Assembly (NCBI GenBank): GCA_003599425.1
Contig: QZKC01000091.1
Span: 1 to 38,245 of the forward strand
DNA from: Nitrospiraceae bacterium
GTDB taxonomy: Bacteria > Nitrospirota > Thermodesulfovibrionia > UBA6902
Reading direction: 5' to 3'
Length of the DNA stretch: 38,245 bases
The stretch's first letter is position 1. Every line of letters begins with the position of its first letter. The position numbers and the translations under genes are program-made. Below are positions 187-36,158 of the stretch, piece after piece. The notes beneath the pieces were generated by a model. That model saw nothing but the letters and a program-made list of their open reading frames with translations, was not told the DNA's origin and ran no database searches.

Positions 187-891
187 ATGAGCACGGTCTC
201 TCCCATAATTACTGAACTACGTACGCTCCCCTGCCTCTCTGCATTGAAGGAAGAAGAGCTGTACAGTCTTGGCGGACATTCCCACACAAAGAAATTTCAG
301 AAAAATGATACCTTGTTCCTGGAAGATGATCCTGTACATTCCCTTTTCGTGGTCAAAACAGGACGGATAAAACTGTTCAAGACCTCGTTTAACGGCAAGG
401 AATTGATCATAAAAATTATGAGGCCGGATGAGTATTTCTGCTGCGCGCCTGTTTATTGCGATAAAGTACATCCTGTTAGTGCAGCAGCCCTCGAAGACTC
501 TGAAATATTAGTGATCCCTGTGAAGGATTTCAAGGCGATGCTCAATAGCAGTGTGAGTGAGACGGGGTTAAGGATAATATCAGGCCTGTGCAGCAGGATA
601 AAATATCTGTCCGGTCTTTTAGAGGACATTTCTTTCAAGGACGTTGAACACAGGATACTCATGCTGCTTCTCCGGCTTGCTGAGGAGAAAGCTCCGGAGG
701 CCGACATTGTGCTGCTTACCATTACCCATCAGGATATCGCCGCAATGACAGGCACCGTGAGGGTCGTTGTCTCAAGGACCATGTCAAAGCTGAAAAAAGA
801 GAAAATAATTGTCGACAGCACGATAAAAGGTTTTACGTTGGATAAAGCAAGGCTATCCCGCCACATCTCACATTTCGAGAGGCCTGTGTAA
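187..891 (+). CDS. Crp/Fnr-family transcriptional regulator
   Basis: This 234-residue protein has the two-domain Crp/Fnr plan. Residues about 15-120 form a cyclic-nucleotide-binding-type beta-roll (for example FVVKTGRIKLFK, then a KELIIKIMRP strand). A linking helix follows, then a winged helix-turn-helix at about 176-210 (THQDIAAMTGTVRVVVSRTM). It lacks the N-terminal Cys cluster of Fnr that binds a 4Fe-4S centre, but has Cys16 and a CC-x4-C group (85, 86, 91) at the roll edge. The signal is therefore unknown; a redox, NO or haem-type ligand is possible. The next gene encodes a multihaem cytochrome, so control of anaerobic respiration is a plausible inference. The start is the first ATG; no strong ribosome-binding site is visible. 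Confidence 0.88.
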   Translation: MSTVSPIITELRTLPCLSALKEEELYSLGGHSHTKKFQKNDTLFLEDDPVHSLFVVKTGRIKLFKTSFNGKELIIKIMRPDEYFCCAPVYCDKVHPVSAAALEDSEILVIPVKDFKAMLNSSVSETGLRIISGLCSRIKYLSGLLEDISFKDVEHRILMLLLRLAEEKAPEADIVLLTITHQDIAAMTGTVRVVVSRTMSKLKKEKIIVDSTIKGFTLDKARLSRHISHFERPV

Positions 892-1075
892 CATAAGTAA
901 CTGACATCCATCCTTCCCTGATTTAAGATTTAGCCAGGGCCGTGTCCATCTGGTACCATCTTGGTTTTGAGACAGAGGAGAAGTCGAATATATCTATCCA
1001 GTTATTGCATTTCTTGTTATACTGGCAATAAAAGCAGGAATAATATTCTTCTTAAGAAAAAGAAGGGCGGCCAAA
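892..1075 (+). other. Intergenic stretch with an orphan membrane-helix reading frame
   Basis: From 971 to 1075 the frame of the downstream cytochrome stays open. It reads as a hydrophobic helix (VIAFLVILAIKAGIIFFL) followed by basic RKRR, but no ATG, GTG or TTG codon lies in frame after the TGA at 968-970. It resembles the C-terminal anchor of a lost membrane protein rather than random DNA. It may be a deletion scar fused to the cytochrome, or coding sequence with an unrecognised start. No clear promoter was seen. Confidence 0.3.
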
Positions 1076-24621: not shown

Positions 24622-26856
24622 ATGAAAAAAACATTAATACTCCTTTTCGCCGGGATACTTGTTCCTGCGCTTGGCCTGACAGTCCTAAGCAATGAAAGCA
24701 GCGCTGAATATGTCCCCGGAGAGGTTCTCGTAAAATTCAGGCATGGGACAGACCCTGTTATCATGAACAGGCTGCATAAAGGCATAGGCTCAGTCAGGAA
24801 AAAAGATTTCAGTGGGATCCGGATGCACCAGGTAAAGCTTCCTGATACCCTGAGTGTGCAGGAGGCAGTAGAGGCTTATAAAAGCGATCCGGATGTTGAA
24901 TATGCTGAGCCTAACTACATTATTCGTATCAGCACTGTTCCGGATGATACATACTTTTCCAATCTCTGGGGGCTCAACAATACAGGACAGATCATAAATG
25001 CAATAGATGGAACTCCTGACGCTGACATTGACGCGCCTGAGGCATGGGACCTCACAACCGGATCACCCGATGTTGTCATAGCAGTGATCGATACAGGAGT
25101 TGCATATGACCATCCGGACCTTGCCGGAAATATCTGGACAAATGCTGGAGAGACCGATTGTTCGGACGGTATTGATAATGACGGCAACGGGTATATTGAT
25201 GACTGCCGGGGATGGGACTTTGTTGGAAATGACAATGCCACTATGGATTATAACGGCCACGGCACACACGTGGCAGGGATTATAGCAGCAACCGGAAACA
25301 ACGCAGACGGGGTAACAGGCGTCCTCTGGAACGCAAGGATAATGCCCCTCAGATTCATGGGAGTAAATGGTTCAGGGACCACTGTTGATGCCTTATCAGC
25401 AATTCTGTATGCAAACGCAAACAGCGCGCACATCATCAATGCCAGTTGGGGCGGAAGCGGGTACAGCCAGTCACTGAAGGACGCCTTAAGCGCCTCAGGA
25501 GCAGTTGTAGTCTGTGCAGCAGGAAACAGCGGCAGCAATAATGATTCCTCGCCTTTTTACCCGGCAGGCTACGACCTCCCGAACATTATTTCGGTAGCAG
25601 CTACTGACCACCTTGACGCCCTCGCATTGTATTCAAATTACGGAGCGTCATCAGTAGACCTGGCCGCGCCGGGATCAGGCATTTACAGCACTATCCCTGT
25701 TATCAGCTATGGCGACTCCGTCACCCTGTACGGAGAGGAAAACTTTGACGGAACATCCGGAGCGCTTCCTCTTCTTGGATGGTCTAAAGGGGGCGCTAAT
25801 TCAACCTGGGCTGACACAGGCGGAACAGGTTACGACGGAACGAACAGCCTTGAGGACAGCCCCAGCGTAAACTACGCAAACAACACCTCGACATGGGCGG
25901 GATATATGACGCCGATCTCATCAGTTAAGGACAATATATATGTGCTGACTTTCAAGTGGAAGGGAACGCTTGAGGATGGATATGATTATCTCGACATTAA
26001 TTACTCTGCTGACGGAATTCATTGGGACTGGATGGACTACAGGACCGGGACTACGAATGGCGTTTTTATTTCGGATTCCACTCAGGACTTAACCGACATT
26101 GCTGAAATGAATGACCAGTTCTATTTTGGATTCGGGCTGACTGCCGATGCAACGATAAACAAAGAGGGCGTGTATCTTGACGATATCCGGTTGACGCGGA
26201 CGCCTGTTTCAGTCAGCAGCTACCAGTATATTTCTTTCAGCGGAACCTCCATGGCAGCGCCTTATGTATCAGGAGTTGCAGGTTTGGTAAAAGCTCTCAA
26301 ACCGGAATTGACAAACATTCAGATAAAAGCCGCTATATTAAACAGTGTTGCTGCCCTGCCTTCCCTTGCCGGCAAGGTATCAACTGGCGGACGACTGAAC
26401 GCCTACAAGGCTCTTACTGAGGAGAATTTGACAATCGGGGGAGAAGGCAGTGAGAGCGAAGAAAATACCGGCAACACTTCTGAAACCGTACATACTGCAT
26501 CTGGTGGTGGTGGCGGAGGAGGAGGATGTTTTATTGCAACAGCCGCATACGGGAGTATCATGCACCCATATGTGAAGGCCTTGCGGGAGTTCAGGGACCG
26601 GCACTTACTGACCAATGCTTTCGGCAAGAGGTTTGTTCAATACTATTACAAGTACTCCCCGCCCGTAGCGGATGTGATAAGAGACAATGAAAAATTAAGG
26701 TTGCTGACGAAAATCGCCCTGATTCCGGTCGTGATGGCAGTTGTATTCCCTTATGAGTCTGCATTTATACTGGCACTGGCTACAGGAGCCGCGTTCATAC
26801 TACGGATGAAAAAACGTTCAAGACTGTCTGTCCCTCATAACCCCGATAAAAAATAA
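24622..26856 (+). CDS. Secreted S8 subtilase with CFI-box C-terminal domain (2)
   Basis: This 744-residue paralogue of the preceding gene has the same order of parts. A signal peptide (about 1-28) precedes the propeptide (YVPGEVLVKF ... [10 protein letters not shown]). The triad is Asp157, His213 (HGTHVAG) and Ser543 ([12 protein letters not shown]), with [10 protein letters not shown] between Asp and His. About 165 inserted residues precede Ser, then come eight glycines, [10 protein letters not shown] (Cys636) and the terminal domain. The inserted domains of the two proteins are far less alike than the catalytic and C-terminal parts, so the pair may recognise different surfaces or substrates. 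Its 3' end overlaps the convergent MFS gene by 39 bp. The ribosome-binding site is weak. Confidence 0.92.
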   Translation: MKKTLILLFAGILVPALGLTVLSNESSAEYVPGEVLVKFRHGTDPVIMNRLHKGIGSVRKKDFSGIRMHQVKLPDTLSVQEAVEAYKSDPDVEYAEPNYIIRISTVPDDTYFSNLWGLNNTGQIINAIDGTPDADIDAPEAWDLTTGSPDVVIAVIDTGVAYDHPDLAGNIWTNAGETDCSDGIDNDGNGYIDDCRGWDFVGNDNATMDYNGHGTHVAGIIAATGNNADGVTGVLWNARIMPLRFMGVNGSGTTVDALSAILYANANSAHIINASWGGSGYSQSLKDALSASGAVVVCAAGNSGSNNDSSPFYPAGYDLPNIISVAATDHLDALALYSNYGASSVDLAAPGSGIYSTIPVISYGDSVTLYGEENFDGTSGALPLLGWSKGGANSTWADTGGTGYDGTNSLEDSPSVNYANNTSTWAGYMTPISSVKDNIYVLTFKWKGTLEDGYDYLDINYSADGIHWDWMDYRTGTTNGVFISDSTQDLTDIAEMNDQFYFGFGLTADATINKEGVYLDDIRLTRTPVSVSSYQYISFSGTSMAAPYVSGVAGLVKALKPELTNIQIKAAILNSVAALPSLAGKVSTGGRLNAYKALTEENLTIGGEGSESEENTGNTSETVHTASGGGGGGGGCFIATAAYGSIMHPYVKALREFRDRHLLTNAFGKRFVQYYYKYSPPVADVIRDNEKLRLLTKIALIPVVMAVVFPYESAFILALATGAAFILRMKKRSRLSVPHNPDKK

Positions 26857-28038
26857 TACTGCAATTGCTCCAAGCAGAGCAGATGAAAAAATAAATGCCT
26901 TTTCAAATCCAAAATAACCCGCAATGATACCTGATACCAGCGGGCCTGTTGTATGTCCGATGTCCATTATTGAACCGAGCACGCCCATTGCTGAGCCGTG
27001 CGTTTCCTTGCGGCTCAGATCTGCGATGAAGGCTGAGGTAGCAGCAGTAACAACCGAGAGGCTAAGGCCAAACAGGATGCTCAAAGCAAGCAGCGGAATA
27101 AATGATCTGAATAATCCAAAACTCCCGATACAAAATGCGCCTGTCAAAGCGCCTGCCAATATCTGGGGTTTTCTTCCATGCCTGTCGGAGAACCTGCCCA
27201 TAAGGGGTTTTGTAAGAGCAAGCGTGATCACCTGAATTGAAAGAAAGATGCCGATCTTATAGGCGCTCAATCCCGACTGAAGCGCATAAAGAGGAAGAAA
27301 TGTCTCAAAGGTCCCGTACGCAAAGAGTATCGCCGCCTCAACAATGCTGGTTATCAGAATCCTCCTGCTTGAAAGTATGTCCCTGAATCCGTCAAGGGTT
27401 TCCTTCCATCCTCTTTTTGCCCCCCCCTTGAGAGGGCGAGACGATGAAGGACCGGACCTTTCCCCGCTAAGAGAAAAAGATTCTTTTATCCTGAACGCGA
27501 GCACCAAAACAATTAATCCTGCAGCCCCGCATACAAGATAGACAAGCCTGTAACTTAGCCCCGGATTGAAAACTATTGCACCAATAATACTTCCCCCGGC
27601 TAAAGGCGCTAAAAACCTCCCGGCAAGAGTAGACGTGGAGAACCATCCGAGTTTCTCGCCCCGCTCCTTGTGGAACAGATCTGATACCAGTGCCATTGCA
27701 ACCGGCATGAATACAGCAGTGGCAAAACCGTGATAAAACCGTATAACAGCAAGCTGCCAAAGCTGAGTTACCAGGAGATAAAGAAAGGGCGCAGTTGCAA
27801 AAATGATGGCTGCAAATATCAGCATCTTCTTTCTTCCAAACCGGTCTGAAAACATCCCGGCCGGAATACTGACAATAATCCCTGTAAGCGCAGATACCGC
27901 TGCTATGACCCCGACCCCTGACGGAGCAGCGCCGAGATGAGAGGCAAAAAAAGGAAGCACAGGGCTTTTTGATATGGTGGAACTGAAGATCGCAAAAAGA
28001 CCAGTGATGCAAAGCAGTCTGAAAGGGTTGATTTTCAT
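26818..28038 (-). CDS. MFS transporter (2), last gene of the chromate/stress cluster
   Basis: This 406-residue protein has 12 predicted membrane helices and the MFS loop motif GMFSDRFGRKKMLI (between helices 2 and 3), repeated as GRFSDRHGRKPQIL in the second half. It is a drug/proton-antiporter-type carrier; the substrate is unknown. It is a paralogue of the MFS protein at 30102-31301. The central loop between helices 6 and 7 is about 14 residues longer here and contains PSSSRPLKGGAKR, which is translated repeat DNA (27419-27452). Its ATG overlaps the HD-gene stop (ATGA, 28035-28038), so the two are translationally coupled. Confidence 0.9.
   Translation of the reverse strand: MKINPFRLLCITGLFAIFSSTISKSPVLPFFASHLGAAPSGVGVIAAVSALTGIIVSIPAGMFSDRFGRKKMLIFAAIIFATAPFLYLLVTQLWQLAVIRFYHGFATAVFMPVAMALVSDLFHKERGEKLGWFSTSTLAGRFLAPLAGGSIIGAIVFNPGLSYRLVYLVCGAAGLIVLVLAFRIKESFSLSGERSGPSSSRPLKGGAKRGWKETLDGFRDILSSRRILITSIVEAAILFAYGTFETFLPLYALQSGLSAYKIGIFLSIQVITLALTKPLMGRFSDRHGRKPQILAGALTGAFCIGSFGLFRSFIPLLALSILFGLSLSVVTAATSAFIADLSRKETHGSAMGVLGSIMDIGHTTGPLVSGIIAGYFGFEKAFIFSSALLGAIAVLFFIGVMRDRQS
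27419..27452. repeat. Repeat family H, half-copy (inside an MFS gene)
   Basis: GCCCCCCCCTTGAGAGGGCG then AGACGATGAAG matches the first arm of 14148-14244 (CTCCCCTCCCTTGATGGGAG, GATGAAG). It is read on the minus strand as part of the central cytoplasmic loop of the transporter. Confidence 0.65.
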
Positions 28039-28583
28039 TTCTTCATCAAATTCTGAATCTCCCTATGATAACCCAAATACCTCTGAAGTGTTATTTCATT
28101 CTTGCCGTATTTCGGAAACTCACGGAGAATCTCCTCAAACCGAGTTTCAGCTTCTGCCTCACTGGTAATCGTCACAATCCCGTCAGTGATGATGTCCACA
28201 AGCCTGTCAGCGTATATAACTATTTTTTCTTCAAGGCTGGTCAACGTATAATTTTTTACCGGCAAGCCAAGCTCAATAGCTTCCTCCCCTGTCAACCCTC
28301 CCCTGATGTGCTTTTCCATGATATCCGTGATCCCCTTCGGCAGTCCTAATTGTCTTCCCATTTCAGCGCCGATCTTTCCGTGCTCCATCTCATGGGTTTT
28401 CGCTTTGCCAAGGTCATGAAACAAAGCGCCTCTGCCGACAAGCTCCAGGTTCACAGCATCTTTAGTCCTCTGTGCAACCTCCAGGGCCTTCTCCGCTACT
28501 TTAACGCAATGGCTTATGTCTTCTTCCGATACCCCTGCATTACGCAGGATATTGATGTCAGAATCCTGAATGATATACCTCAT
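28035..28583 (-). CDS. HD-domain phosphohydrolase
   Basis: This 182-residue protein has an HDIG-type HD domain: a first His (His25, SHCVKVAEKA), HDLGK (His56, Asp57), HGKIGAE, KHI and a later Asp (YADRLVD). The family hydrolyses nucleotides or phosphoesters with a two-metal centre; the substrate is unknown. GGGAGG before the ATG gives a good ribosome-binding site. It lies 39 nt after chrA in the same direction and overlaps the following MFS gene by four bases. Confidence 0.88.
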   Translation of the reverse strand: MRYIIQDSDINILRNAGVSEEDISHCVKVAEKALEVAQRTKDAVNLELVGRGALFHDLGKAKTHEMEHGKIGAEMGRQLGLPKGITDIMEKHIRGGLTGEEAIELGLPVKNYTLTSLEEKIVIYADRLVDIITDGIVTITSEAEAETRFEEILREFPKYGKNEITLQRYLGYHREIQNLMKK

Positions 28584-28622: not shown

Positions 28623-29888
28623 TTACATTATTTTCCAAATATACCCGGCTGCAGCAGAGCCGATGATCACCGGTATCATTCCCCATTTGAACTTTGTCAT
28701 ACCAATGAAAGTCACTATTGAAGCCACAAGGGCATACCACTCAAATCCGCCGGTTTCAGGAAAAAGAGTGTGGTGCGTGAAATTCACGGCAAGACTGAGA
28801 ACCACGCCTACCACCGCAGCAGTGATGGCTGTCAGGGCGGAAGCAAGTTTCAAGTTCCTGCGAAGAGATTCAATATAAGGCGCACCAATGAATATCCAGA
28901 TTATGGATGGGACAAATGTCACCCAGGTCGCAAGCAATCCGCCGAGCGCTCCTGCAACAGAAGGTGACAGTCCCGGCATATGGAGATAGGCTGCAACGTA
29001 AGCTACAAACTGGTTCACCATGATAAGAGGTCCCGGTGTGGTCTCTGCAAGAGCGAGTCCGTCCATCATCTGTTCAGGTGTGAGCCATCCGAAGTGATTC
29101 ACTGCCTGCTGGCTGATGTAGCCGAGCACAGCATATGCGCCACCAAAGGTTACGACAGCAGCCTTGCTAAACAGTATTCCAATGTTGACGAGCACGGAAT
29201 CCCATCCCTGCCATAATCCAAAAATAATGATCGGGGAAAACCACAGGAATATCCCGAACACCATAATTTTTATTGCACGCCCCCATTCGCCGGATATCAA
29301 TTTTGGTTCTGCATTAATTATGGGTGTACTATGTGCGGCTGATTGACCGGACATCCGGTGGTTTAATAAATAACCGATAGCGGCTGCGCTGAAGACGATA
29401 ACCGGGAATGGGATATTCAGAAAATAAATAGCTGTAAACGACGCACCAGCGAGAACAATGAGGCTCGCGGTTTTCAGGGACTTTTTCCCGATCCTCAACA
29501 CTGCTTCTGCTACTATAGCAACCACAGCCGGTTTGAGTCCGTACAAAAACGCAGCAACAGACGGCATGCTTCCAAAGGCAACATAGCCCCAAGTCAGTCC
29601 CCAAAGAATGAATACCGATGGCAGAACGAACAGCACGCCTGCTGCAATGCCTCCACGAGTGCGGTTAAGCCTCCAGCCGATGTAGGTTGCAAGCTGTTGA
29701 GCCTCAGGCCCCGGCAGGAGCATACAAAAGTTCAGTGCGTGCATAAACTGGTCTTCAGGAAGCCACTTTTTGTTTTCGACCACTTCCTTGTGCATCATGG
29801 CTATTTGGCCGGTTGGCCCGCCGAAACTGATAAATCCGAGCTTCAGCCAGTAGCGAAATGCCTCTTTGAATGATACGGGCTGTTCCAT
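28623..29888 (-). CDS. chrA: Chromate transporter ChrA, two-domain form
   Basis: This 421-residue membrane protein of the CHR family exports chromate from the cytoplasm. Two homologous halves are visible. The N-terminal half has FISFGGPTGQIAMMHKEVVE, then WLPEDQFMHALNFCMLLPGP and EAQQLATYIG. The C-terminal half has VVTFGGAYAVLGYISQQAV then LTPEQMMDGLALAETTPGPL. Together they form about ten or more helices. It belongs with chrB upstream, although a family-C repeat and an MFS gene lie between. No strong ribosome-binding site is seen before the ATG. Confidence 0.95.
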   Translation of the reverse strand: MEQPVSFKEAFRYWLKLGFISFGGPTGQIAMMHKEVVENKKWLPEDQFMHALNFCMLLPGPEAQQLATYIGWRLNRTRGGIAAGVLFVLPSVFILWGLTWGYVAFGSMPSVAAFLYGLKPAVVAIVAEAVLRIGKKSLKTASLIVLAGASFTAIYFLNIPFPVIVFSAAAIGYLLNHRMSGQSAAHSTPIINAEPKLISGEWGRAIKIMVFGIFLWFSPIIIFGLWQGWDSVLVNIGILFSKAAVVTFGGAYAVLGYISQQAVNHFGWLTPEQMMDGLALAETTPGPLIMVNQFVAYVAAYLHMPGLSPSVAGALGGLLATWVTFVPSIIWIFIGAPYIESLRRNLKLASALTAITAAVVGVVLSLAVNFTHHTLFPETGGFEWYALVASIVTFIGMTKFKWGMIPVIIGSAAAGYIWKIM

Positions 29889-30101: not shown

Positions 30102-31301
30102 TCATGTCTTCTCGGTTACGCTCAATGTAAAGACCGGCACAGACAATAAAAGTATTGCGGACATTATCCAGAATGAGTATGTGTAATCCATATGCGCCAG
30201 TAATAAGCCCGCGAGTATCGGGCCAGATGCATGTCCGATGTCGAAGATCGTTCCGAACGTGCCCATGGCTGTTCCGAAATGTTTTTCTTTGCATATATCA
30301 GCAACAAAGGCAGCAGACGATGATGTTACAAAAGACTCTCCCAACCCGAAGAATACGGCGGCAATCATAAGAAGGTAAAAGTCCTTCAGCAGCGGAATTA
30401 ATCCGAAGGATACCGCGCATAATATCATGCCAACTGATATGAGCGGTTTTCTGCCGTGTCTGTCGGATATCTTTCCCATAACCGGCTTTGACAGGATAGT
30501 GATCACCACCTGCACTCCCCAGAGAAGTCCAGCCTGAAACTCATTGAGTCCGGCGACCGTCACAGCATAGATAGGAAGGAACGCCTCCAAAGCTCCCACT
30601 GTCATGTTCTGGAGACCTTCCATTGATGATGTAATTACAACCCTGCTGTCGCTGACAACTTCCTTTATTCCTGAAACAAACCTTTGGAAGATTTCACTGA
30701 GAGTTCTTGCTTTCTCAACTTTTTCATGTCCTCTCAAAACACTGATTCCGAGAACGAGTGACATCAGTCCGGCAAACCCGCTTGCAAGATATGCAGTGTA
30801 AAATTCGTTCAGCGTCGGATCTCCTTTGGACAAACCATGAAGTATGAACCCCCCAAGCGGAGCGCCCAGCAGATTTCCGATGATAGTTATTGAAGAAAAC
30901 CATGAGAGCATTTCCCCTTTACTTTTCCCGGCTACATCTGCCACAACCGCCATGGATACAGGGCCATAGACAGCAGTAGCAAGCCCATGAATAAACCGGA
31001 TGACTATAAGGAGATAGTAATCATGGACGAGGAGATAGGTAAAAGGCATTACAGCAAAAACCCCCAGTCCTATAAGCATTGTTTTCTTTCTTCCTATCAC
31101 ATCGGATAGTGCTCCCGAAGGCATTTTAAAAAATATGCCCGTTACTGTTGAAATGCCTACAGCAAATCCTATTGCCTCAGGCCCTGCTCCAAGATAAAGT
31201 GCAAACAAGGGCAGCACAGGGCTCCGTGCAAGGGCATATGAAAGCCTCGCAAAGAAGCCCACGGTGCAGAGAGCTGTGAATGGTGAAAAAATGTTTTTCA
31301 T
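30102..31301 (-). CDS. MFS transporter (1)
   Basis: This 399-residue protein has 12 membrane helices, with the MFS signature GALSDVIGRKKTML between helices 2 and 3 and its repeat GKISDRHGRKPLI in the second half. It resembles sugar- or drug-efflux-type MFS carriers; the substrate is unknown. It is a paralogue of the MFS protein at 26818-28038 but with a shorter central loop. The frame can start at TTG 31310, but ATG 31301 (MKNIFSPF) has GAGG at good distance and is preferred. It sits within the chrB-to-HD cluster, separated by palindromic elements on both sides. Confidence 0.9.
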   Translation of the reverse strand: MKNIFSPFTALCTVGFFARLSYALARSPVLPLFALYLGAGPEAIGFAVGISTVTGIFFKMPSGALSDVIGRKKTMLIGLGVFAVMPFTYLLVHDYYLLIVIRFIHGLATAVYGPVSMAVVADVAGKSKGEMLSWFSSITIIGNLLGAPLGGFILHGLSKGDPTLNEFYTAYLASGFAGLMSLVLGISVLRGHEKVEKARTLSEIFQRFVSGIKEVVSDSRVVITSSMEGLQNMTVGALEAFLPIYAVTVAGLNEFQAGLLWGVQVVITILSKPVMGKISDRHGRKPLISVGMILCAVSFGLIPLLKDFYLLMIAAVFFGLGESFVTSSSAAFVADICKEKHFGTAMGTFGTIFDIGHASGPILAGLLLAHMDYTYSFWIMSAILLLSVPVFTLSVTEKT

Positions 31302-31327
31302 CAAAAACAACCTCGTTTATGAATGCT

Positions 31328-31475: not shown

Positions 31476-32030
31476 TTAATGTTTCACTGGCGTCTGTCTG
31501 TCATAATAGATACTCTTTCCGGTAATGCTCACAGGAATTCCCATAACTACTTCGCCTTTTATAAAACTTAGGGCCTTTGCAGCAGCCCCGACTCTCTGCT
31601 GAACTCTGTTGTCCACATTTAAAAGACTTGCTGTCTTTGCAGCAGAAGAGAGGGCGACTCCGATATCGATCATTCTCATCACACAGTGAGGGCCTGTATA
31701 TCCCATCTCTTTTTCTTTCATCTGTCTGTTTTTTGCAAATTCGGCGCATGTCTGGTAACCGCAACCTCCGCAATCGTAGCCTGCCGTTACCGGTTTGCTT
31801 AATCCTATCAGAAGCAATGCCTGTGAGTTTTCAATATTTGATGCATCCCTCATCCAGTACGCTTCATTTGTACTTTTTGGCGCATACTCTTTCATTGCCT
31901 CTGCGATCTTTTTCAGATCCTCATCTTTCGTGATTACCACTATTTCAAGAAAGTCCTTTCCCCCGGCCTTCGGCGCTGTCCGCGCTGATGCCGCCATAAA
32001 GTTTGCTGTCATAACTGCCACTTCCTTCAT
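31476..32030 (-). CDS. DUF2148 ferredoxin-domain protein
   Basis: This 184-residue protein has the DUF2148 pattern. An N-terminal MTANFMAASARTAPKAGGKD is followed by the Cys motif DCGGCGYQTC (Cys87, 90, 95) and Cys116 (PHCVM), together a likely 4Fe-4S site. It then has a C-terminal part with GVALSSAAKTASLLNVDNRV. Such proteins are found in anaerobes and their role is not established; a redox or flavin-linked function is assumed. GGGAGG precedes its ATG. It follows the UspA gene by 18 nt, so it belongs to the chrB transcript. Confidence 0.88.
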   Translation of the reverse strand: MKEVAVMTANFMAASARTAPKAGGKDFLEIVVITKDEDLKKIAEAMKEYAPKSTNEAYWMRDASNIENSQALLLIGLSKPVTAGYDCGGCGYQTCAEFAKNRQMKEKEMGYTGPHCVMRMIDIGVALSSAAKTASLLNVDNRVQQRVGAAAKALSFIKGEVVMGIPVSITGKSIYYDRQTPVKH

Positions 32031-32048: not shown

Positions 32049-32891
32049 TTACGTTCTTACAACAAGAACCGCACAGCCTGCGTAACCAATGACTTTTTCT
32101 GTTGAACTTCCCATTAATACTTTCCTGATCCCTGTCTTTCCATATGTTCCCATAACTATCAGATCAACGCCTCTGCCTCCTGCCGTCTCAACAATAACAT
32201 CATAAGACCTGCCAATCGGCGTTATTGTTTCAGCATTCACGCCCTCGTTTCGTGCAATGTCTGCTGCCCTGTTTACATGCGCCTGTGCCTCCTCTTGTTC
32301 GCTCTCATCCCTCATTGCAGAAAGGATAAGCAGTTCGCTTCCACAGCACTTTGCGATCCCAACTGCTTCGGCAACAGCCTGCTCGCTGTGCTGAGATCCA
32401 TCTGTGGCAACAAGGAGTTTTTTGAATTCAATTCTTGCCGCCTTTGGCACTACGAGAACTCTGCTCGGGGCATGGCCGATGACCTTTGCTGCCACTTCAC
32501 CCATGAGAAGCTTTTTCAGCCCTGTTTTGCCGCGTCTGCCGATCACTATCATATCAACACGATTTGCTGATGCTGCTTCAACGATCTCGGTGTACGGGTC
32601 TCCGTGAGCAATAAGGACCTCGCAATCTGTCTTCTCTTCTGAAGCACGGCTTTTGACAGACTCAAGATGTTTCTTAATCTCAGCATCCCGCATCTCCTCT
32701 ATGCGCTGAGGCGAGAAGGCTTCATAATCGGTTAATATCTCTGCGACAGACATTGCATAAACCTTGCTCGAGCAATTTTTCGCAAAATTTAGCGCCTCTC
32801 TTTCGGCACCTTCGCTAAATTGTGAACCGTCAGTTGCCAGAAGAATTTTACGAAGTCCTGATAATGGACATGTTGTTGCACAATTACTCAT
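32049..32891 (-). CDS. Tandem universal stress protein (two UspA domains)
   Basis: This 280-residue protein has two UspA domains (about 14-150 and 155-280). Both start with a Usp strand (ILLATDGSQFSEGA; LLVATDGSQHSEQA). Both have the ATP-binding G-x2-G-x9-G pattern: GRRGKTGLKKLLMGE and GTYGKTGIRKVLMGSS. In the first domain Glu replaces the usual Ser/Thr, so ATP binding may be limited to the second. The N-terminus SNCATTC has two Cys. A strong AAAGGAGG precedes the ATG. It lies 14 nt after chrB and is co-transcribed with it. Confidence 0.94.
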   Translation of the reverse strand: MSNCATTCPLSGLRKILLATDGSQFSEGAEREALNFAKNCSSKVYAMSVAEILTDYEAFSPQRIEEMRDAEIKKHLESVKSRASEEKTDCEVLIAHGDPYTEIVEAASANRVDMIVIGRRGKTGLKKLLMGEVAAKVIGHAPSRVLVVPKAARIEFKKLLVATDGSQHSEQAVAEAVGIAKCCGSELLILSAMRDESEQEEAQAHVNRAADIARNEGVNAETITPIGRSYDVIVETAGGRGVDLIVMGTYGKTGIRKVLMGSSTEKVIGYAGCAVLVVRT

Positions 32892-32905: not shown

Positions 32906-33892
32906 CTATGTCTTCGAGACATACAGCATCTCGAAAACCTCCATCCCCTTTTCAAGGATTTCCAGATCGTTTTTTGCCGCTTTCCTGATACCGGCTAAAA
33001 TATCCTCTAATCCAGTTGCTCCAGGGGAGTTGTATTTTTTATCTTTTATATCGAGTTCGTGGACTGTTTCAGCAATCTTTCTCAGTGCTTTGTCTTTCAT
33101 CCCAAATGACTTCATCAGTACCTCAAAAGTGCACATATTACCTATATGCGTGAATTCTCCCCCTCTAATATCAAAGGGAACAGAATCTTTGTCAGGACGC
33201 TCCATCTCTTTTTCATCTATGAATTTAAACTCTGCTTTATTATCTATAAACTTCCGGATAAGCCAGGCAGATGCCATCCTGTCAACAAAAGGCCTTTTGC
33301 GCGTTACCCATGTCCGGCCCTGATAGTCCCCGGCATTTCTTGAAATCATTTCAAGGGGCGGTCTTCTGATGGATTTGGACAGCCCCAGCGTATCTTTCTG
33401 AAGCGCTTCGATCTTCTTTTTTAAAGACGCCCCTCTTTTCGACCTGAAAAAATCAATCTTCCTTATATCATCGAATTCTTTCTGGAGCCGGGCAAACTGA
33501 TCCATCATTTTTTTATTGTCCTGAGCGCCTGTTCCTTTATTAATGCTGTTTATCTTCCGCTCAAGGTCTTCCACCTTCCTTTCTACTGCGCCGTAATCCT
33601 TATCCCTTAAAAGATCAAACAAGGCGATTATCTCTTCATTCTTCATGGTCTCGATCTTGTCAACTGCGACAAATGCACCTTCCCCTTTTACTGCAGCGAC
33701 TTCCGATACAAGCCACTGGCAGAGCTCATAGTTTTCTTCATTGTAGGGCAATACGTACACTGCGCCTCTCAACTGCGCTGCTCCTGCCCTTGATAAGGTC
33801 CTCCAGATCTTCATCCGCGCATTTACAGGCTTTGACGGAACGCTGTAAAAAAACAGCAGCCATGTGAACCCTTTCAAATTCTTGTAACTCAT
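32906..33892 (-). CDS. chrB: ChrB-like chromate resistance/regulatory protein
   Basis: This 328-residue protein has a ChrB N-terminal domain (GFTWLLFFYSVPSKPVNARM), an extended helical middle (about 90-165, probable coiled coil) and the ChrB C-terminal domain (RTWVTRKRPFVDRMASAWLI then RKFIDNKAEFKF; GGEFTHIGNMCTFEVLM). In Ochrobactrum, ChrB controls the chr operon in response to chromate; chrA lies downstream in this cluster. I start it at ATG 33892. The open frame extends 19 codons further, but that part covers the promoter. The start codon lies inside an array of GTAAC/GTTAC half-sites, which suggests autoregulation. It leads the minus-strand cluster. Confidence 0.92.
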   Translation of the reverse strand: MSYKNLKGFTWLLFFYSVPSKPVNARMKIWRTLSRAGAAQLRGAVYVLPYNEENYELCQWLVSEVAAVKGEGAFVAVDKIETMKNEEIIALFDLLRDKDYGAVERKVEDLERKINSINKGTGAQDNKKMMDQFARLQKEFDDIRKIDFFRSKRGASLKKKIEALQKDTLGLSKSIRRPPLEMISRNAGDYQGRTWVTRKRPFVDRMASAWLIRKFIDNKAEFKFIDEKEMERPDKDSVPFDIRGGEFTHIGNMCTFEVLMKSFGMKDKALRKIAETVHELDIKDKKYNSPGATGLEDILAGIRKAAKNDLEILEKGMEVFEMLYVSKT

Positions 33893-33915
33893 GTTACCAC
33901 TGTAACAGATGTTAC
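33884..33915 (-). promoter_or_regulatory. Four-half-site operator over the chrB start
   Basis: GTAAC, GTTAC, GTAAC and GTTAC follow each other with exactly 4 nt between each (33884-33888, 33893-33897, 33902-33906, 33911-33915), so any two neighbours form a palindrome at 9-bp period. The array covers the -10 box and the start codon of chrB, ideal for a repressor. ChrB itself is the most likely ligand (inference). Confidence 0.75.
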
Positions 33916-33927
33916 TTTGCTTGTCAA
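33899..33927 (-). promoter_or_regulatory. chrB promoter
   Basis: On the minus strand, TTGACA (33922-33927) is followed after 17 nt by TACAGT (33899-33904), preceded by an extended -10 TG. The ATG begins 6 nt after the -10, so the mRNA is predicted to be leaderless. Confidence 0.75.
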
Positions 33928-34037: not shown

Positions 34038-36158
34038 ATGTCTAAACGTTCCCTCGCAGGAAAGTGGCAAATAATAACAATGATCGTCGCGCTGGGCGTT
34101 CTTTACTGGATAACCGATTCTTTCATTGAAGTCTTCATATTAGGCAAGCCTTCCCTGAAAACCCAGATATTTTCTCCGGCTGCACACAACATCTGGATGC
34201 GTCTGATGACTATCAGCGTTCTTATCTTCTTTGGCGTCCTTGCCCAATATCTGATTAGCGGTTATAAGCGGACAGCCTCTTCTCTTAAAGACAGCGAGGA
34301 GCGCTACCGTAGTTTATTTGATAACGCCCATGATCTGATTCAAAGCATTGCCCCGGACGGAAAAATTATCTACGTAAACCCCGCATGGTTAAGGACCATG
34401 GGTTATTCACTCGAAGAGTTGCGCAATATGACGGTATTCGACATTCTGCACCCGAACTACAGGGACAGTTGCCTGAATACGTTACAGCAAGTACTGTCAG
34501 GTGGGACAAAGGATAATATCGAAGCGGTATTCATATCCAAAGACGGCAGGCTGGTGAATGTGGAAGGGAACGCAAATGTGCAGTTAGTTGACGGAAAAGC
34601 AGTTGCCTGCAACGGGATATTCCGCGATGTAACGGAACGTAAAAGGATGGAAGAGCAGATCTTTCAGATCACCCACGATTGGGAAGACACCTTTAATACC
34701 ATCACGGACATGATCACAATCCATGACAAGGATTTCAATATAATACACGCCAATAAACCCGCAGAAAAGATACTCGGCCTCCCTATTTTAAATGTGTCTC
34801 CGGCAAAGTGTTACCAGTTTTATCACGGAACTGGTAGTCCTCCTGCAGTATGTCCAAGCTGCGATTGCCTCAAGACAGGAATGTCTTCAACAACTGAAAT
34901 ATATGAACCGCACTTAAAAATGTTCATTGAGATCAGGGCCATACCGAGGTTGGACAGCAATCATAACCTTATAGGGTTGATCCATGTCGCACGAGATATA
35001 ACAGAACGTAAAAAACTTGAAGACCAACTGCGTCAGGCGCAAAAGATGGAAGCAATCGGGCAGCTTGCAGGAGGCATCGCTCATGACTTCAACAATATGC
35101 TCACAGCTATAATAGGATACGCAAATATTTTAAAAATAAAGATGGGGGCTGATAATCCTCTGAAGATCAATATTGACCAGATACTCGCCGCGTCAGAAAG
35201 GGGCGCTTATCTGACACAAAGCCTTCTTGCTTTCAGCAGGCAACAGATAAGCAATCCAGACCTGGTAACTGTCAATGAGATAATAAGAAAGATTGAAACA
35301 CTCTTATTAAGGGTAATTGGGGAAGATATAGAGCTCAAGACAATATACAATGAAGATTTAACAGTAATGGCGGATCGCGTACAGATGGAGCAGGTACTAA
35401 TGAACTTATGTACAAATGCAAGGGATGCCATGCCGCACGGAGGGATTTTGACTATTGAAACGGGACGAATAGAATTGGATAGTGAATCTTCCGCAGCACA
35501 CGGAATTGGCAAACCCGGGAACTATTCTGTTATTTCTGTTTCGGATTCTGGTACCGGTATGGATAAAGGCATTCAGGAAAGAATATTTGAGCCGTTCTTT
35601 ACAACAAAAGATATTGGAAAGGGGACCGGGCTTGGATTATCAATAGTATATGGAATCATAAAACAGCATAACGGGTATATAAATTGTTATAGTGAACCAG
35701 GGAAGGGTACTAAATTTAAGATGTATCTCCCGATCGTTAAATCTACAGTTAAAGAGACCCTCCCGGCAGAGTCCCATGACCTAAAAGACACGACAGCAAC
35801 AATACTTCTGGCAGAGGATGAGCCTGCGGTCAGAAAATTAACCAGTCAAATCCTTAAAGAGTTCGGGCATGAAGTCATCGAAGCGGTCGACGGCGAGGAT
35901 GCTGAGGCCAAATTCCTTGAGAATAAGGATAAAATAGATCTCCTTATTTTTGACGTAATCATGCCGAAGATGAACGGCAAAATAGCCTATGACAGGATCA
36001 AGGCAGTGAACCCTGATATAAAAGCGCTTTTTACAAGTGGATACCCTGCTGATTTTGTACACAGGCAGGAGATAATTGACGAAGGATTGAATTTTGTATC
36101 AAAACCGATATCACCAGCAGGGCTTTTAAGAAAAGTCAAAGAGGTGCTGGCGATATAA
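34038..36158 (+). CDS. Hybrid sensor histidine kinase (TM-PAS-PAS-HisKA-HATPase-REC)
   Basis: This 706-residue membrane kinase has two N-terminal helices (about 12-32 and 52-72) and a first PAS domain (about 84-205, SEERYRSLFDNAHDLIQSI). A second PAS follows (about 215-330) with a Cys set (C-x12-14-CPSCDC). The HisKA box GGIAHDFNN has phospho-acceptor His349. The HATPase domain has MEQVLMNLCTNARDAM, DSGTGM and GTGLGLSIV. The receiver domain (about 590-706) has phospho-acceptor Asp639 (LIFDVIMP) and SKP. The PAS cysteines could sense redox state or bind a cofactor. No separate response regulator is adjacent. It may act with the divergent chromate cluster, but nothing proves that. Confidence 0.93.
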   Translation: MSKRSLAGKWQIITMIVALGVLYWITDSFIEVFILGKPSLKTQIFSPAAHNIWMRLMTISVLIFFGVLAQYLISGYKRTASSLKDSEERYRSLFDNAHDLIQSIAPDGKIIYVNPAWLRTMGYSLEELRNMTVFDILHPNYRDSCLNTLQQVLSGGTKDNIEAVFISKDGRLVNVEGNANVQLVDGKAVACNGIFRDVTERKRMEEQIFQITHDWEDTFNTITDMITIHDKDFNIIHANKPAEKILGLPILNVSPAKCYQFYHGTGSPPAVCPSCDCLKTGMSSTTEIYEPHLKMFIEIRAIPRLDSNHNLIGLIHVARDITERKKLEDQLRQAQKMEAIGQLAGGIAHDFNNMLTAIIGYANILKIKMGADNPLKINIDQILAASERGAYLTQSLLAFSRQQISNPDLVTVNEIIRKIETLLLRVIGEDIELKTIYNEDLTVMADRVQMEQVLMNLCTNARDAMPHGGILTIETGRIELDSESSAAHGIGKPGNYSVISVSDSGTGMDKGIQERIFEPFFTTKDIGKGTGLGLSIVYGIIKQHNGYINCYSEPGKGTKFKMYLPIVKSTVKETLPAESHDLKDTTATILLAEDEPAVRKLTSQILKEFGHEVIEAVDGEDAEAKFLENKDKIDLLIFDVIMPKMNGKIAYDRIKAVNPDIKALFTSGYPADFVHRQEIIDEGLNFVSKPISPAGLLRKVKEVLAI

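Follow-up and report, generated by a model that had tools for sequence, protein, structure and literature searches.

Upstream of chrB in the window (that is, the whole 38,245-nucleotide stretch of DNA analysed here) lies an array of four phased half-sites that, judged from sequence, very probably forms the autoregulatory operator of the chr operon, composed of two tandem 14-bp palindromes that would each presumably receive one ChrB dimer. Along the minus strand, the promoter sequence is TTGACA AGCAAA GTAAC ATCT GTTAC AGTG GTAAC ATGA GTTAC, in which the half-sites GTAAC (33915–33911), GTTAC (33906–33902), GTAAC (33897–33893) and GTTAC (33888–33884) are separated by gaps of exactly 4 nt each, giving a 9-bp period. 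The first palindrome (operator copy 1, GTAAC-ATCT-GTTAC, minus strand, 33902–33915; GTAACA-NN-TGTTAC in a frequency table of 54 loci) occupies the spacer between the −35 box (TTGACA, minus strand, 33922–33927, read directly and conserved in the same place when the Nitrospirota loci are aligned) and the −10 box (TACAGT, minus strand, 33899–33904; family form TACATT), and extends into the latter, which sits on its right arm. These two boxes, separated by a 17-bp spacer, are the sole sigma-70-like match in the region (10/12). The second palindrome (operator copy 2, GTAAC-ATGA-GTTAC, minus strand, 33884–33897), seen both by direct reading and in the Nitrospirota alignment, spans the opening codons of chrB together with the point at which transcription is expected to begin, and the chrB ATG (33892–33890) falls within it, 6 nt past the −10 box. 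The centres of the two 14-bp palindromes are 18 bp apart, so that, with a helical repeat of 10.5 bp, one copy is turned about 100 degrees relative to the other and the two do not share a face of the helix.

A preceding sequence-only reading had singled out the interval 33884–33927 (which reaches from the fourth half-site as far as the outer edge of the −35 box) and considered four phased half-sites with 4-nt gaps improbable by chance. The phasing is exact on the sequence, and the pattern GTWACN4GTWACN4GTWACN4GTWAC, allowed up to 3 mismatches, is expected 0.00 times per shuffle of the window; at the same tolerance, the window itself matches only at the real array and its two 9-bp offset overlaps. 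The 2.9-Mb genome has only 4 exact copies of GTAAC-N4-GTTAC, and the chrB promoter accounts for two of these. An exact palindrome at position 29445 of contig C19 lies within a coding gene and was taken as chance.

The gene headed by this promoter (chrB, minus strand, 32906–33892, 328 amino acids) matches PF09828 (1.7e-45), PF20229 (4.5e-7) and PF20803 (2.1e-5), and has the layout of ChrB (an N-terminal Cas2-like/PaaX_M domain, a helical middle and a ChrB_C sensor domain), with the ChrB_N and ChrB_C domains of the regulator of a ChrB-type chr operon recognized by PF09828 and PF20229, both over cut-off. On comparative grounds, the ATG at 33892 is the right start, because the alternative, a longer open reading frame from 33949, would begin upstream of the promoter and homologues align from about residue 7–10 of the short form. 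From 33892 down to 26818, chrB leads a same-strand run of genes that are probable members of one operon: a universal stress protein with two Usp domains (32049–32891, 14 bp after chrB), a DUF2148 Fe–S/ferredoxin-domain protein (31476–32030), an MFS transporter (30102–31310), chrA (28623–29888), an HD-domain protein (28035–28583, assigned by eye) and, last, a second MFS transporter (26818–28038, also by eye) that overlaps the HD-domain gene. The chrA product, a CHR-family chromate transporter with two PF02417 halves, is the presumed output of the operon, and its gene order (downstream of chrB on the same strand) is that of a ChrB-type chr operon. At another locus (L126), a protein similar to the HD-domain protein of the window adjoins chrB. 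A hybrid sensor kinase that combines two PAS domains with a receiver domain is encoded divergently (34038–36158), beginning 145 bp from the chrB start.

Sought upstream of related chrB genes, as the sequence-only reading had proposed, the array is present at 54 of the 67 chrB loci from Nitrospirota (relatives collected through protein, family and contig searches; spacer-4 score of ≥14 of 20 at ≤450 bp upstream of chrB, with about 3 of the 54 weak). These 54 loci align as TTGACA-N4-AT-GTAACA-NN-TGTTACAYT-N-xTA[AT]CA-NNN-G[TA]TACA, with the TTGACA frame usually kept, and this conserved array, tied to chrB in related promoters, upholds the idea of a repressor-type operator at this gene. The remaining Nitrospirota loci include variants in which the gap is 3 (L068 and L081), 5 (L073) or 6 bp (L095) and two in which the array stands about 3 kb upstream of chrB (L058 in genome G155 and L070 in G224); at L049, no convincing 14-mer pair was seen at chrB. 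Where a small gene comes first, the array was expected to stand in front of the whole operon and not directly at chrB. This held in about 16 loci, most of which have a small open reading frame before chrB and all of which carry the array about 200–410 bp upstream, ahead of the operon and in the TTGACA frame. In many Nitrospirota chr operons, the gene preceding chrB encodes a small protein (about 55–100 amino acids) with one or two FAEAGE-type repeats; such a frame lies between array and chrB at L031, L034, L035, L038, L051, L057, L061, L067, L072, L083 and L088.

The array is also specific to chr operons. When 296 Nitrospirota genomes were searched with a degenerate pattern (≤3 mismatches), chr operon matches were found in 38 genomes and every match with ≤1 mismatch was a chr operon, whereas the 5 matches elsewhere all had 2–3 mismatches, against 9 for a reversed-pattern control. 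One matching genome that seemingly lacked chrB (G313) has the gene cut by a contig end directly behind the array. The array accompanies 38 of 60 genomes with chrB and 0 of 236 others (Fisher p ~1e-32, for genomes that are related and a pattern built from some of them). Two genomes (G162 and G155) have a second array at other genes of the chr operon, which fits a common regulator. A further copy directly after chrB, before a block of small-gene, HD and MFS genes, was observed at L126 (1501–1544) and, by coordinates only, at L132 (G244), suggesting that several chr transcription units may share the operator.

That chrB is probably leaderless, as the sequence-only reading had assumed, is supported by the 6 nt between −10 box and ATG and by mapped starts in Cupriavidus metallidurans, in which the transcripts of both chrB1 and chrB2 begin at the first base of the start codon, at a distance of 0 bp from the gene (PMC9045368). 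In our own reading of pMOL28 chrB1, a −10 box TAAGCT stands six bases before the ATG, a spacing equal to that of the window. Cupriavidus metallidurans differs in other respects: on pMOL28 the best palindrome, GTAGAGATCTCTAC, is upstream of the −35 box rather than over the −10 box, and a divergent chrI gene lies nearby. Among the Nitrospirota, 20 loci place an in-frame ATG within palindrome 2, either 23 or 25 bases on from where palindrome 1 begins; others start chrB further downstream, several with a ribosome-binding site. Given this variation in the position of the start codon, the operator is positioned by the promoter and not by the start codon.

An autoregulated repressor operator lying over its promoter is of an ordinary kind, and a ChrB operator region is already published. 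In Ochrobactrum tritici 5bvl1, ChrB of TnOtChr is mainly a dimer that binds and represses its own promoter region, with induction by chromate, and its operator was described as one 12-bp imperfect inverted repeat with a linker (PMC3817168). We find that this repeat, exactly 34 bp long, parses as 14-6-14 (GTAGATCTTATCTC ATTATT GTAGTAACATCTAC), and an identical 34-mer stands 3 bp before the chrB ATG in Comamonas. As in the window, the palindromic site overlaps the −10 box and reaches the chrB start and, in our own reading, consists of two tandem GTA-N8-TAC 14-mers; the half-sites, however, are GTAG/CTAC instead of GTAAC/GTTAC, the first copy is imperfect and the gap is 6 instead of 4. More generally in Proteobacteria, two GTA-N8-TAC 14-mers commonly precede chrB, mostly as GTAG...CTAC with a gap of 5, 6 or 7 bp, and the second abuts the chrB ATG; no convincing 14-mer pair was seen at chrB in L101, L102, L104, L112 or L115. 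The statement of the sequence-only reading that no ChrB operator of this form had been described therefore stands only in part: the O. tritici region, with its 14-6-14 layout, had been published, but as one imperfect repeat, and the open-licence literature searched yielded no division of the ChrB operator into two tandem palindromes that holds across phyla.

The residues on which regulation depends in O. tritici are likewise retained. R18 and R23 are needed there for repression, and R180, R187 and H229 for the chromate response (PMC3817168); the equivalents in the window (R26, R31, R198, R205 and H249, with numbering transferred by way of the Comamonas ChrB, whose operator is the identical 34-mer, and not from the O. 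tritici sequence itself) are invariant or almost invariant across 78 sequences. A structural model of ChrB (mean pLDDT 87, pTM 0.65) comprises an N-terminal ferredoxin-like domain, a helical middle and a C-terminal domain, places R26 and R31 in the predicted first helix (23–35) of the Cas2-like domain, and contains no recognizable helix-turn-helix. None of the PDB chains matches ChrB by sequence, and a Foldseek search with the model gave partial, weak matches (best E 0.02) to Cas2 proteins and to PaaX, the latter over a longer stretch.

We take GTAAC-N4-GTTAC, 14 bp in length, to be the operator unit, because this palindrome is constant while the gap between palindromes varies (nearly always 4 bp in Nitrospirota, with 3, 5 or 6 bp in single lineages, and 5–7 bp in most Proteobacteria). 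The sequence-only reading had also pointed to an overlapping second register, GTTAC-AGTG-GTAAC (minus strand, 33893–33906), itself a perfect palindrome in the window promoter, and supposed that two alternative registers could let ChrB slide or give graded occupancy; gliding of ChrB along the promoter was also speculated on by the O. tritici authors (PMC3817168). With the gap at 3, 4, 5, 6 or 7 bp by locus, however, the second register requires a gap of 4, and in the 54-locus frequency table the third of the four half-sites is the most degenerate, which makes the middle register the least conserved. Covariation in the 54-locus alignment is uninformative on this choice (arms 1 and 2 hardly vary, and arms 3 and 4 have no clear covariation). 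We therefore find the proposal of two registers unsupported and regard it as highly improbable: the second register simply follows from a gap of 4 bp and is not conserved by itself.

The palindromes might instead serve a CRP/FNR-family regulator, with chrB merely one of its targets. GTAAC-N4-GTTAC does resemble the boxes of that superfamily (for example, GTA-N8-TAC for NtcA and TTAACA-NN-TGTTAA for PrfA), and the genome has two single sites, GTAACATAAGT[TA]AC, each immediately behind a CRP/FNR-like gene (window 888–901 and contig C30 3012–3025). Such sites are only two, though, and single, without the tandem partner or the TTGACA frame, whereas the tandem array is found at chr operons only and not at many unrelated promoters of the genome, follows chrB through differing gene orders, and recurs with the same architecture in the Proteobacteria, where O. 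tritici ChrB itself binds; we thus consider this explanation unlikely. Some other protein of the chr operon could also bind the array, for example the small FAEAGE-repeat protein, given that ChrB has no recognizable helix-turn-helix and that at about 16 loci a small frame comes between chrB and the array. We give this hardly any credence, as the window and most array loci lack a small frame at that place, the FAEAGE-repeat protein has no significant Pfam match, and O. tritici ChrB binds its own promoter without it. Besides their location near CRP/FNR-like genes, the single sites, which read GTAACATAAGT[TA]ACTGA (window 888–901, and L018 on contig C30), stand upstream of a multiheme cytochrome c and an Fe–S flavoprotein, and are possibly boxes of the CRP/FNR family.

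For the preferred reading, in which ChrB governs its own operon through the two tandem palindromes, we infer that in the Nitrospiraceae host one ChrB dimer binds each palindrome and that chromate brings release. Counting against this reading are the chrB loci at which no clear pair was seen, the pMOL28 palindrome placed upstream of the −35 box, and the lack of a recognizable helix-turn-helix in the ChrB model. The dimers would adjoin over the spacer, the −10 box, the start site and the start codon and, without chromate, would exclude RNA polymerase from the promoter; cooperativity between them is plausible, given the near-constant gap and 18-bp pitch within the phylum. Sensing of chromate by the C-terminal domain would then lift repression, allowing chrB, chrA and the remaining operon to be transcribed as a leaderless message. 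As chromate did not free ChrB from DNA in the O. tritici gel shifts (PMC3817168), release may not be simple dissociation. In the same system, a 3-nt change in the repeat cut expression, yet did not abolish binding (PMC3817168), and the tandem palindromes suggest why this partial mutation spared binding, in that an intact palindrome may remain. The reading puts a testable operator for ChrB in place of a vague 'AT-rich imperfect inverted repeat', one that could be used for annotation of chr regulons and for tuning chromate biosensors.

It also raises the question of how DNA is read by a protein without an evident helix-turn-helix. We tentatively propose, as a possibility that we hold with rather less than even confidence, that ChrB is a sequence-specific repressor that would read paired 14-bp palindromes with no helix-turn-helix at all, through the Cas2-like ferredoxin domain bearing the repression arginines, and that the tandem-palindrome operator may be general across phyla, with only the half-site letters and the gap changing. 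The PaaX_M Cas2-like domain of ChrB is shared with PaaX, which has an additional N-terminal winged-helix domain. PaaX-family regulators differ in using single sites and phenylacetyl-CoA as the effector, but the operator of the Thermus thermophilus member TTHA0973, CNAACGNNCGTTNG (PMC6651687), is similarly a 14-bp pseudopalindrome, with the core AAC-N4-GTT in common with the chrB array. Two N-terminal-only ChrB-like proteins (L113 and L114), one of which adjoins mcr-5 on a Salmonella plasmid, are preceded at about −60 to −10 by GAAACGGCCGTTAC or GTAACGACCGTAAC, near the PaaX core AAC-N4-GTT.
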